From assembly GCA_012516935.1 (NCBI GenBank), contig JAAYVZ010000120.1:1-38686 (forward strand): 38,686 nucleotides of DNA. Reading direction: 5' to 3'. Below the pieces are notes generated by a model that saw only the letters and a program-made list of their open reading frames with translations, was not told the origin of the DNA and did not search any database. How positions within the stretch are numbered: position 1 is the stretch's first letter; each line of letters begins with the position of its first letter. A program made the position numbers and the translations under genes. Origin of the DNA: Holophagae bacterium. Lineage in GTDB: Bacteria > Acidobacteriota > Thermoanaerobaculia > Thermoanaerobaculales > Thermoanaerobaculaceae. Positions 3,051 through 26,392 of this stretch are shown here, piece after piece.

Positions 3051-4451
3051 TCAGACGAGCCGAACCGTCTCCTCGAGCGCGGGGATATGGCACGGCCACG
3101 CGAAACGCTTGGTGATGCGCGCGGCCAGGGCGGCGCTGGCAGCCGGCTCTCCGTGGGTGACGAACACCGTTTTCGGTGCCGTCTCGGCGCGCGCGAGCCA
3201 GATCTCGAGCTCGTCGGCGTCGGCGTGGGCGGAGAGCGAGGAGATCGAGCGGACCTGTGCTCGCACCGGCACCATCTCACCGAAGATCTTGACCGCTTTG
3301 GCTCCCTCCAGGATCGCCCGACCGCGGGTTCCCTCGGCCTGGTAGCCGACGAACAGCACCGTGGTTTCCGGGCGCGGCAGCCGGTGCCGGAGGTGGTGCA
3401 GGATCCGGCCCCCGGTGGCCATCCCCGAGGCCGAGATGATGATCGCCGGCCCCCGGAGCGTGTTGAGGCGTTTGGACTCATCCGTTCGCCCCACCATCGT
3501 GAGGTTGGGGGGAGCGAGAGGATCGACTCCCTCACCACGCAGGTGGCGGGTCTCCGGGTCGTGCTCGCGGACCGTGTCGCGGTAGGCGGCGGTGGCTTCC
3601 CGCGCCATCGGTGAGTCGACGAAAATGGGTACCGCTGGTACTGCCTCGTCCTCGATCAGCTCGCGCAAGTAGTACAGCACCTCCTGGGTGCGGTCGACGG
3701 CGAACGCGGGGATGAGGACGATACCTCCCCGGTCGACGGCCTCCTTGATGACCTCGGCGAGATCGTCACGGGGGTCGGTGGCCGCGTGCAGCCGGTTGCC
3801 GTACGTGGACTCGATCACCAGGTAGGTCGAGCCCGGGTACGACTCCGGCGGTGGCAGGATCGGCGCGTCGTAGCGACCGACGTCGCCCGAGAAGTAGATC
3901 GTCACGTGCTCGCCCGCCGCCTTGATGCGCAGCTCCACCGCCCCGGCGCCGAGGATGTGCCCTTGACGGTGGTAGCGGACCTGCATCCCAGCATGCAGGA
4001 CGTGCCAGTCACCGAACGGCACGGGGCGGATGGTACGCAGCGCCTGTTTGACATCCTCCTGGCTGAACAGCGGCTGGGCGGGGCGGTGCTTCGTGGACCC
4101 GACCTTGTTGGCGTAGCGGGCTTCTTCCTCTTGGAGGTGCGCGGCGTCGGGCAGCAGCACCCGGAGGAGCCGCAGCGTCGACGGCGTGGCGATGGTCGGC
4201 CCCTCGAACCCCTGTCGCACCAGCAGCGGGAGGATGCCCGTGTGGTCGATGTGGGCGTGGGTCAGGATCACGTGGTCGAGGGTCGATGGCTCGACCGGAA
4301 ACGGCGCCCAGTTGCGTAAACGCAGCTCCTTCGGCCCCTGGAACATCCCGGCGTCGACCATCACCTTGGTGCCATGTGCCTCGACCAGGTACCGCGAGCC
4401 GGTGACGGTGCCGGTGGCGCCCAAAAAGGTGAGGTTGACCATGGCATGCAT
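3051..4451 (-). CDS. Beta-CASP metallo-beta-lactamase RNase (CPSF/YSH1-like)
   Basis: This is a zinc-dependent nuclease of the metallo-beta-lactamase/beta-CASP group, related to bacterial and archaeal CPSF-like RNases. The metal-binding motif is THAHIDH (about residues 64-70). A later histidine lies in RQGHILGAG, an aspartate in FSGDVGRYD, and the beta-CASP segment contains PAFAVDRTQEVLYYL. The C-terminal RMMBL part has SSLSAHAD and VFVTHGE. I placed the start at ATG 4449-4451; a second in-frame ATG at 4440-4442 is equally possible, because no strong ribosome binding site separates them. The longer frame to 4508 is less likely. It is convergent with rny; the 39-nt gap holds no clear terminator. 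It probably acts in RNA processing. Confidence 0.9.
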   Translation of the reverse strand: MHAMVNLTFLGATGTVTGSRYLVEAHGTKVMVDAGMFQGPKELRLRNWAPFPVEPSTLDHVILTHAHIDHTGILPLLVRQGFEGPTIATPSTLRLLRVLLPDAAHLQEEEARYANKVGSTKHRPAQPLFSQEDVKQALRTIRPVPFGDWHVLHAGMQVRYHRQGHILGAGAVELRIKAAGEHVTIYFSGDVGRYDAPILPPPESYPGSTYLVIESTYGNRLHAATDPRDDLAEVIKEAVDRGGIVLIPAFAVDRTQEVLYYLRELIEDEAVPAVPIFVDSPMAREATAAYRDTVREHDPETRHLRGEGVDPLAPPNLTMVGRTDESKRLNTLRGPAIIISASGMATGGRILHHLRHRLPRPETTVLFVGYQAEGTRGRAILEGAKAVKIFGEMVPVRAQVRSISSLSAHADADELEIWLARAETAPKTVFVTHGEPAASAALAARITKRFAWPCHIPALEETVRLV

Positions 4452-20061: not shown

Positions 20062-20139
20062 TGGTGTGCCCGGCGCGATTCGAACGCGCGGCCTTCAGAT
20101 CCGGAGTCTGACGCTCTATCCGGGCTGAGCTACGGGCAC
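20062..20139 (-). tRNA. tRNA-Arg (anticodon CCG)
   Basis: On the - strand, acceptor GTGCCCG pairs with CGGGCAC. The anticodon stem TCAGA/TCTGA holds loop CTCCGGA with CCG. The T arm is GCGCG-TTCGAAT-CGCGC. The discriminator is A and CCA is encoded. It is the last gene of the four-tRNA operon, and its 3' end faces the defence island, the side where integrating elements commonly insert. Confidence 0.95.
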
Positions 20140-20157
20140 ACACGGAAAGGGCAAACA

Positions 20158-20235
20158 TGGGGTGGACGAGGGGATTTGAACCCCCGACCATCGGAGCCAC
20201 AGTCCGATGCTCTACCTAGCTGAGCTACGCCCACC
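20158..20235 (-). tRNA. tRNA-His (anticodon GTG)
   Basis: On the - strand, acceptor GTGGGCG pairs with CGTCCAC. The histidine-specific extra G at -1 faces C73. The anticodon loop CTGTGGC has GTG in stem TCGGA/TCCGA. CCA is encoded. Confidence 0.95.
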
Positions 20236-20246
20236 ACAGTCGTGTT

Positions 20247-20323
20247 TGGCCTGCCTGAGAGGATTCGAACCTCCGACCCGCGGATTAGAAGTCCGCCGCT
20301 CTATCCAGCTGAGCTACAGGCAG
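20247..20323 (-). tRNA. tRNA-Arg (anticodon TCT)
   Basis: On the - strand, acceptor CTGCCTG pairs with CAGGCAG. The anticodon loop CTTCTAA gives TCT in stem GCGGA/TCCGC. The T loop is TTCGAAT, the discriminator is G, and CCA is encoded. It reads AGA/AGG codons. Confidence 0.95.
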
Positions 20324-20366
20324 ATCGGTGGAAACGAGAAGCGCCGCCGGAGGCCCTCCCGGGCAC

Positions 20367-20443
<77 letters not shown>

Positions 20444-20670: not shown

Positions 20671-20764
<94 letters not shown>

Positions 20765-22312: not shown

Positions 22313-23443
22313 TCATGAACAGGCCTGAGTCATGCGGCTGTGGCCGAGGATGGTCGTGAGCAGAGGCTCCCAAAGCTCGGGGGGAACCCCTTCTTCGCTG
22401 GCCCAGGACCGCCAGAGCTCCGTCAGTCGTGCCTCACGGGAAGCATCGAGGACCTGGGCTCCAGCCTCCCGCTTGAGGGCGCCGATCCCGCGCACGGCGT
22501 GGAGGCGGCGGCCGAGGGTCGCGAGCAGCGTCGTGTCACATCGATCCACAACCGCCCGCAGGGCGTGTTGACGACCGGTGGGGCGTGGCTGCTGGTCCAG
22601 CGCTCGCCGGGCGGCCGAGAGCTCTCGCCACAGCGGTTCCAGGGTGTCCGCCGCCAGCGCCTGGCGCAGCTCCCCGATCGCGGCCTGAAGTCGGTCGAGC
22701 GCGTCGAGCACGGGTGCCCGGTTGGTGGCGAGGATGCCCGACCACACCTCCCACGCGGAGCCGGCAACGCGTGTCATCTCGCGAAAGGCAGGGCCAGCGA
22801 CGGTGGGCAGCACGCCGTGGGTGGCGTCGGCATCCCGGGCGAGCGTCATCAGCGCCAGGGCGACGAGCTGGGGAACGTGACTGGTGGCGGCGAGCACCTG
22901 GTCGTGCTCGCAGGGATCGAGAGCCAGCGGGGTCGCACCCAGGTCGCGCACGAGGTCGAGCACGGTGAGCCAGTGCTCTTCGTGCACGTCGGTCGGGGGG
23001 CACAGGACGTAGGGTCGACCGCGAAACAGGCGCGGGTCGATCGCACCTACACCGCAGCGCTCGCTGCCGGCAAGGGGGTGGCCGCCCACGAACGCCGCTT
23101 TGGCAGGCAGCACCTCGCTCGCCCTCGCGCAGATCAGAGCCTTGGTGCTGCCGACGTCGGTGACCAGGGTTCCTGGCGCGAGCCGTGGTGCGACCGCCGG
23201 CAGCAGGTCGAGGATGGCGTCGACCGGCGCGGCCAGGATCACCAGCCTCGTTTCGGCGAGGTGAGGGTCCGCCTCGCCGAAAGTCACGGCCTCGTCGACC
23301 GCTCCGGTCCGGGTGAGGGCCGCGAGGCGGTCGGGGAGGTCGACACCCACGACGCGCTCATGGGGCCGTGCGCGCCGCAGCGCTGCCGCGAGCGAGCCGC
23401 CGATCACGCCGCAGCCGACAATGACCGTCGTGGCACTACACAT
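22313..23443 (-). CDS. tyrA: TyrA: prephenate dehydrogenase with C-terminal chorismate mutase
   Basis: A 376-residue bifunctional enzyme of tyrosine synthesis. The N-terminal part is an NAD(P)-binding prephenate dehydrogenase: Rossmann motif [13 protein letters not shown] (about 7-19), LVTDVGSTK, and [12 protein letters not shown]. The last ~90 residues look like an AroQ chorismate mutase: [34 protein letters not shown] and LGHSRMTQ. The R, R, K, D, RE and Q residues fit the mutase active site. E. coli TyrA has the two domains in the opposite order. The start overlaps the upstream DAHP synthase end by 8 nt, so the pair is an operon. Dehydrogenase certain; mutase likely. Confidence 0.92.
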
Positions 23444-24464
23444 GGCAGCCTCCCAAGGGGCGCCCGAGCGCTGCGGCGATCATCCGGCAGCGGTTGGCGG
23501 TGGCGGCGAACTCCTCGGCGGTGAGGGACTGCGGGCCGTCGGAGAGCGCGTGGTCGGGGTCCGGGTGGATCTCGACGAGCAAGCCGTCCGCGCCCACTGC
23601 GACCGCGGCACGCGCCAGCGACGGCACGAGTTTCCGGTGCCCGGCGGCGTGGCTCGGGTCGACCACCACAGGCAGGTGCGAAAGCCCCTTGACCACCGGT
23701 ACGGCCGAGAGATCGAGCGTGTTGCGCGTGGCGGTCTCGAAGGTCCGGATCCCCCGTTCACAGAGGATGACGTGGGGGTTCCCGGCGGCGAGAACGTAGT
23801 CGGCGGCAGCGAGCCACTCGGCGATGGTTGCCGACAGCCCCCGCTTGAGCAGGACCGGCCGGCTGGCGTGCCCGAGCGCGTCGAGGAGGGGGAAGTTCTG
23901 CATGTTGCGGGCACCGACCTGGAGCAGATCGGCGTACGCGCTCACGGCCGCGATCTGCTCGACGCCAAGGACCTCGGTGCACACGGCGAGGCCGTGGCGA
24001 TCGGCAGCGCCGCGAAGCATGCGTAGCCCCGGCTCGCCCAGCCCGCGGAACTCGTGCGGCGAGGTGCGCGGCTTGAACACGCCACCGCGCAGGATCCTCC
24101 CCCCGGCCGCCGCGACCGCCGTGGCTGCGGCCTCGATCTGCTCCTCGCTCTCGACCGCGCAGGGGCCGGCGATGAGCACGACCTCGGGACCACCCACGGT
24201 CACATCCCCCACAGCGACGAGGCTGGGCTCGGGGTGGAACGCCCGGCACGCCAGCCGGTACGGGGTCGACAGCCGGAGCACCTCCCGGACTCCAGGTAGC
24301 CCGGCGAAACGCTGGGGCGAGAGACTGTGGCAGTCGCCCACGAGGCCGAGGATCGAGTGCTCGGTGCCATCGGAGCGGTGCACCTCGAGCCCGTGAGCGC
24401 GTGCCACGGCGAAAACCCCATCGATCTCGTCCTCGCTGGCCTGATGGTCAAGAACGATCAGCAT
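23436..24464 (-). CDS. aroF: 3-deoxy-7-phosphoheptulonate (DAHP) synthase, type I-beta
   Basis: A 342-residue DAHP synthase, which condenses PEP and erythrose 4-phosphate in the first step of the shikimate pathway. The first ~70 residues form the ferredoxin-like regulatory domain of the Thermotoga-type I-beta enzymes. The barrel has [59 protein letters not shown] and [15 protein letters not shown] 24464 follows GGAGGAGG. A Tyr-rich leader and nested hairpins lie upstream, and tyrA is the next gene, so tyrosine-responsive expression is likely. Confidence 0.95.
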
Positions 24465-24490
24465 CTCTGGCCTCCTCCAGAACGCAAGCA

Positions 24491-24570
24491 GCCCACCCGA
24501 TCTGGGTGGGCCGCGTGATCTGTGTCGTGTGCTCTGCTCGACGCTCGTCCGCCTTGCCCACCCTATGGGG
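24491..24570 (-). promoter_or_regulatory. Candidate tyrosine attenuator
   Basis: Reading the - strand, the leader end has ACCCT, which pairs with AGGGT (segments 1 and 2). Segment 2 is GGGTGGGC (24563-24556), just after the leader stop codon. Segment 3 is GCCCACCC (24511-24504) and segment 4 is GGGTGGGC (24498-24491). Segments 2 and 4 are identical 8-mers and compete for 3. The 3:4 stem has an AGATC loop and is followed by a T-containing but not pure T stretch (TGCTTGCGTTCT). A ribosome stalled at Tyr codons would favour 2:3 and expression; one at the stop would cover 2 and favour 3:4. The pairings are seen; the switch is inference. Confidence 0.7.
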
Positions 24571-24613
24571 AGGGTCCGTAATACCGGGCGGCGTAGCGGC
24601 GCGAGCAGCTCAT
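24563..24613 (-). CDS. Tyr-rich leader peptide upstream of aroF-tyrA
   Basis: A 16-residue reading frame, MSCSRRYAARYYGPSP, with Tyr at 7, 11 and 12. It ends with TAG at the beginning of the regulatory hairpin array, about 98 nt before aroF. Three Tyr codons in 16, with two adjacent, are what an attenuator of a tyrosine operon would use as a sensor. A candidate extended -10, TGG-TATTCT, sits only 9 nt before the ATG, so the mRNA may be nearly leaderless. No strong ribosome binding site is seen. Confidence 0.65.
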   Translation of the reverse strand: MSCSRRYAARYYGPSP

Positions 24614-24622
24614 CTCAGCCCG

Positions 24623-24631
24623 AGAATACCA
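24623..24631 (-). promoter_or_regulatory. Possible extended -10 promoter of the leader-aroF-tyrA operon
   Basis: On the - strand, TGG followed by TATTCT forms an extended -10 element ending 9 nt before the leader ATG. A -35 was not recognised. The transcript would begin at or just before the ATG. Confidence 0.4.

Positions 24632-24703: not shown

Positions 24704-26392
<1,689 letters not shown>

Follow-up and report, generated by a model that had tools for sequence, protein, structure and literature searches.

A short open reading frame with three Tyr codons, followed by a set of mutually exclusive hairpins, precedes an aroF-tyrA operon in the 38,686-nt stretch of Acidobacteriota DNA analyzed here (the window), and we estimate a probability of roughly 0.87 that it belongs to a tyrosine-specific, ribosome-mediated transcription attenuator that would control this operon via Tyr-tRNA. 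This model was assembled from sequence, comparison and folding (the leader reading frame, the enrichment and conservation of its Tyr codons, the geometry of the pairing segments, their alternative folds and the content of the operon), and from these we infer that the leader has a promoter, starts leaderless and is translated, that the last hairpin (3:4) terminates transcription, and that the operon responds to Tyr-tRNA. Attenuation by tyrosine had been proposed in an earlier, sequence-only reading of this DNA; the conservation of the leader in a family of distant relatives (f43) and predicted folds that flip in 10 of 10 leaders now support that proposal.

The operon and its leader

The feature lies on the minus strand, in the 239-nt gap between glnS (24704-26392) and aroF (23436-24464). 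The first gene of the operon, aroF (minus strand), encodes a DAHP synthase of 342 residues (PF00793, NF006421 and TIGR01361), and tyrA (22313-23443, minus strand), which overlaps aroF by 8 nt, encodes a prephenate dehydrogenase of 376 residues with a C-terminal chorismate mutase (PF02153, PF20463 and PF01817). These Pfam and NCBIfam domains bear out the sequence-only reading, which had placed DAHP synthase and TyrA downstream of the leader, and add to it the type II chorismate mutase at the C-terminus of TyrA; the operon (aroF-tyrA::CM) therefore covers entry into the shikimate pathway, its first step, and, beyond chorismate, the branch to Tyr, and so makes the amino acid that the leader is predicted to sense. 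Elsewhere in the window, a cluster of five tRNA genes (20065-20443, minus strand, and 20671-20760, plus strand; Rfam) lies directly upstream of gltX.

The leader (MSCSRRYAARYYGPSP; 24563-24613, minus strand) has 16 codons and a stop (ATG AGC TGC TCG CGC CGC TAC GCC GCC CGG TAT TAC GGA CCC TCC CCA TAG), with its ATG at 24613-24611 and its TAG at 24565-24563. Tyr occupies codons 7 (24595-24593), 11 (TAT, 24583-24581) and 12 (TAC, 24580-24578), or three of 16 residues with two of them adjacent, exactly as the earlier reading had described. An extended -10 element, TGG-TATTCT (24623-24631, minus strand), can be read upstream as the sole promoter-like feature, and would place the transcript start at about 24616, with a 5' untranslated region of about 3 nt and a nearly leaderless leader mRNA; no consensus -35 element was found for the leader, either by reading or by a promoter scan. 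An alternative in-frame start, a GTG 21 nt upstream that is preceded by GAGGA, would leave the Tyr codons and the stop unaffected.

Predicted alternative folds of the leader RNA

Four minus-strand segments make up the hairpin array. Segment 1 (CCCTCCC, 24568-24574) can pair with segment 2 (GGGTGGGC, 24556-24563) in a 1:2 hairpin of -8.7 kcal/mol that contains a T-T mismatch; segment 3 (GCCCACCC, 24504-24511) and segment 4 (24491-24498), both identified from the sequence and from alignment with orthologs, form a terminator-like 3:4 hairpin that with its tail spans 24479-24514 (minus strand; the complete stem, 24514-24488, has 11 bp and a predicted energy of -23.6 kcal/mol). Segment 2 overlaps the leader stop codon, its first G being the last base of TAG, and is identical to segment 4, so that the two compete for segment 3; coordinates and folds thus agree with the earlier reading on both points.

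We computed the folding states of the window leader with the ribosome footprint taken as 16 nt from the first P-site base. With Tyr11 or Tyr12 (the control codons, 24578-24583, minus strand) in the A-site, segment 1 is covered and segment 2 is free, and the probability of 2:3 pairing is 0.997 once segment 3 has been made. A ribosome that has reached the stop codon covers segment 2 and leaves 3:4 to form (P = 0.9998); with no ribosome on the leader, 1:2 forms (P = 0.78) and 2:3 has a probability of 0.0001. The computed 2:3 and 3:4 folds are therefore mutually exclusive, and, given this footprint, the placement of the Tyr codons and of the stop frees segment 2 on stalling and masks it on termination of translation. 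Once segment 4 exists, 3:4 beats 2:3 at equilibrium even with a stalled ribosome, and the switch must therefore be kinetic; classical attenuators likewise decide kinetically.

In the mechanism that we propose, RNA polymerase would start just before the leader ATG. When charged Tyr-tRNA is available, the leader ribosome would reach the stop codon and mask segment 2, 3:4 would form, and transcription would end before aroF. A shortage of Tyr-tRNA would instead stall the ribosome at Tyr11 or Tyr12, over segment 1; segment 2, left free, would then pair with segment 3 ahead of the synthesis of segment 4, and the operon would be read through.

Conservation of the leader and operon

A search for TyrA across 396 genomes of the phylum returned ten full-length orthologs of the fusion (38-44%), all in family f43, which belongs to another class of Acidobacteriota. 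In all ten, aroF lies directly upstream of tyrA, and the nine operons in which the upstream region is kept all have leaders (MNNRFYSYYYYGSYQTDP, MSRCYCRYYYRGSRDRSP, MSRRFYYCFSSYATDP, MNRCKCHYYRIPQESGP, MAVRYYRFYYRGYFKTDP, MRAGFNYYCYSYKTDP, MNSRFYFYYFGAFTTGP, MTVRYFYCRAYFKTDP and MSLLQGVYYYYSSYRPGP). An RNA model recovered two further f43 leaders, one of them the copy severed by a contig end, for a total of 11. Every one of the 11 is Tyr-rich, with Tyr runs kept, ends in Asp, Gly or Ser followed by Pro, and retains the antiterminator and terminator as well as the position of the stop codon and the imperfect T-tail. The alignment has as constants CCC-stop-GGG, CGGCCC in segment 3, GGGCC in segment 4 and a tail like GTTCGCGTTTC, to which the window tail TGCTTGCGTTCT is close. 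At one locus (L238, G372:C127) the leader is intact and aroF continues into tyrA, large parts of the two genes being absent through deletion or assembly error.

The folds behave alike across the family: in 10 of 10 leaders (window and f43), segment 3 is paired with segment 2 at probabilities of 0.81-1.00 when the ribosome is stalled at a Tyr codon, and 2:3 pairing is 0.00-0.17 when it is at the stop codon. A strong 1:2 hairpin is peculiar to the window; in most f43 leaders 1:2 amounts to a few pairs around the stop codon, and their naked RNA is therefore predicted to read through.

The earlier reading had proposed checking relatives for conserved Tyr codons and hairpins and for covariation. 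The Tyr codons and hairpins are kept in the 11 f43 leaders, each before an orthologous aroF-tyrA::CM, which is the conservation that an attenuator predicts, whereas covariation is weak: there is one compensatory pair in 3:4, and the C-G/U-A/U-G variation in 2:3 is not significant alone (permutation value 0.10). Covariation is slight because the stems are nearly invariant. A covariance model built from nine f43 leaders, excluding the window, found the window locus as its sole match, at full length and weakly (12.1 bits, E 0.46); the E-value given to the window by a model that includes it is not independent.

Searches by other routes define the distribution further. The query that located the orthologs was the TyrA fusion, not AroF; searches with AroF, over the nearest 60 genomes and the other contigs of this genome, gave paralogous or unfused operons, none with this leader. 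The leader DNA gave chance matches only in the 396 genomes, no copy of the operon was found in the same genus, the same family or the other sampled members of the class, Thermoanaerobaculia, and the RNA model gave weak matches only in its search for further copies in the class. The model also gave weak matches in Terriglobales. Among about 16 unfused acidobacterial aroF-tyrA operons none has an aromatic leader, and a chorismate mutase gene sits before aroF instead. Window AroF is 59-65% identical to the f43 AroF proteins that have Tyr leaders and at most 57.6% identical to anything else fetched, and AroF and TyrA::CM homology point to one and the same clade; on these identities, leader and operon were probably inherited as a single unit.

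Tyrosine as the best-supported signal

Across ten leaders with 160 non-initial residues there are 38 Tyr, 12 Phe and no Trp, against a Tyr frequency of 2.3% in the genes of the window, which we take as the expected value. Phe is absent from four of the ten leaders, the window's among them, and present in the other six. This last count, together with the precedent of Corynebacterium aroR, is what favors a general aromatic attenuator in which codons for either Phe or Tyr stall the ribosome and Phe is the main signal. We consider such dual sensing unlikely, although it fares better than any other alternative, because Phe codons are absent from the window leader and from those of three relatives, the operon is that of the Tyr branch, and in two genomes pheA has a separate, Phe-containing leader. 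In one f43 genome (G442; L252, G442:C436), a pheA-aroF fusion is preceded by a leader, MLIAGVFSTFAFGFFKARGRLPGE, and a T-run terminator, with Phe as the leader's only aromatic residue, and the tyrA leader of that genome (MNRCKCHYYRIPQESGP) has Tyr as its only aromatic residue. The residue counts, the Phe-free leaders and this pair make Tyr the best-supported signal to be sensed by the leader.

The genome of the window provides the second case. At L155:5343-5481 (G000:C119, minus strand), a leader ending in SSGFYFYFTPETGRCGPPA (FYFYF) and followed by a clean intrinsic terminator with a T-run (GGCCCCGCACCCGACGGTGCGGGGCC-TTTTCTTTTT) precedes a separate DAHP synthase-pheA operon, whose downstream frame, read by eye, is a chorismate mutase-prephenate dehydratase (pheA by sequence). 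Its design is that of the window leader, with segment 2 identical to segment 4: 2:3 pairing reaches 0.985-0.997 when the ribosome is stalled at any codon from F30 to F34, and a ribosome at the stop codon gives 3:4 at 0.998. A promoter-like TTGACG-17-TAAGGT puts the start at the ATG, which suggests that this leader too is leaderless. A third DAHP synthase gene in the same genome follows trpA; no Trp leader was found at trpE in the stretch read, where trpE lies within a longer cluster.

Other aromatic leaders were seen in passing. An Acidobacteriota metagenome-assembled genome (L085, about 3829-3900, plus strand) has a leader of mixed aromatic content, MFQTHASSFTYFSYRYWSFSPIR, with a terminator before aroF and a promoter near the ATG, and Oscillibacter and relatives (L077, L082 and L093) have Phe/Tyr-rich leaders of the AAEYRYFSFTYYFGKAYFGLA type with strong terminators before aroF.

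Termination, other modes of control and chance

As a putative intrinsic terminator, the 3:4 hairpin combines a strong stem with the tail TTGCGTTCT, which, as the sequence-only reading had noted, lacks a pure T-run. The strength of termination is uncertain because this tail is imperfect; the tails of the relatives are similar or better, and their likeness to that of the window makes an impure T-run common to the leader family. The imperfect tail could instead point to translational control, in which the leader ribosome alters access to the aroF ribosome-binding site, and the aroF Shine-Dalgarno sequence (GGAGGAGG, 24471-24478, minus strand) does lie 9 nt past the 3:4 stem, in the loop of a weak hairpin. 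It is part of neither segment 3 nor segment 4, however, T-tails are stronger in relatives (GTTCGTTTTTT at L185), and at L192 the hairpin is more than 60 nt upstream of aroF; we rate control of this kind a shade less probable than dual sensing of Phe and Tyr.

TyrR repression and the T-box are the usual tyrosine controls, and the leader could be incidental to one of these, or a further repressor could act in addition. No Rfam family matched the leader at gathering thresholds or at E 10 (the T-box, RF00230, included), and allowing up to three mismatches gave no TyrR box (TGTAAA-N6-TTTACA) anywhere in the window, which makes such control very improbable and agrees with the earlier view that this leader is unusual compared with TyrR or T-box control. 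The T-box and other Rfam RNAs were accordingly dropped as identities for the leader.

Single elements of the array can arise at random: when the 239-nt intergenic region was dinucleotide-shuffled 20,000 times, an upstream reading frame with adjacent Tyr codons occurred in 1.1%, and one with at least three Tyr in 0.3%. Of the 20,000, one had an upstream reading frame whose stop adjoins a 2/3/4 array with 8-nt segments, and none had such a frame with adjacent Tyr codons together with a 7-nt array; the folding z-score of the leader stretch is -4.0, with 0 of 200 shuffles as good. The joint occurrence and the conservation with the operon in another class both contradict a random short frame beside an ordinary inverted repeat, a reading to which we give next to no credence. 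A scan of 2.06 Mb of fetched sequence (both strands counted) for the same combination matched three aroF leaders, namely that of the window, the second one of this genome and one from Clostridium; we take the remaining matches, about a dozen and mostly A+T-rich, as chance.

Comparison with known systems

Attenuation by a ribosome stalled on a leader peptide is classic for tryptophan and phenylalanine operons. Escherichia coli trpL and pheL have adjacent control codons, a 1:2/2:3/3:4 array, a stop at segment 2 and a biosynthetic operon downstream, and the window leader is like them in all of these and in its short reading frame; it differs in that its control codons are Tyr, its start is probably leaderless, its T-tail is imperfect and it matches no Rfam leader family. 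It shares a pathway with TyrR repression and the Tyr T-box, neither of whose elements was found in the window. The literature that we covered, which takes in little from subscription journals, yielded no Tyr-specific attenuator, and we found no report of a leader peptide for Acidobacteriota. The mechanism is already known; for the Tyr-specific leader family we found neither a match in Rfam nor a published description.

A Tyr attenuator would fill the tyrosine slot among the amino acids that are sensed through ribosome stalling on a leader, and would extend leader-peptide attenuation to Acidobacteriota. The Tyr leader and the FYFYF leader, in one genome, would also form a paired natural test of the way in which leader codons determine specificity between two branches of the pathway.

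The aroR leader of Corynebacterium glutamicum also precedes a DAHP synthase operon (aroF); unlike the window leader, it encodes Phe-Tyr-Phe, is reported to respond to Phe but not Tyr, and is not before a tyrA::CM (PMC11802643, PMC4046766). A C. glutamicum ilvB leader without a ribosome-binding site has been described, to judge from a title cited in PMC4046766. The uORFC-13-1 motif of Acholeplasma is a candidate attenuator before aroF that was published as Phe-coding (PMC8632094). It is unrelated to the window leader in sequence and comes from a different phylum; compared by eye, however, the Acholeplasma loci, upstream of position 4001, have Tyr-run leaders before aroF (YYYFY in L060, YYYFY in L069, YYYYY in L100 and YTYYYF in L104) with tyrA after aroF, which suggests that uORFC-13-1 may sense Tyr, not Phe. 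We would give even odds to the fuller account, in which an undescribed Tyr leader family of Acidobacteriota arose with the chorismate mutase-TyrA fusion, is nearly leaderless and without a Shine-Dalgarno sequence in the window, and has in uORFC-13-1 an independent counterpart in Acholeplasma.
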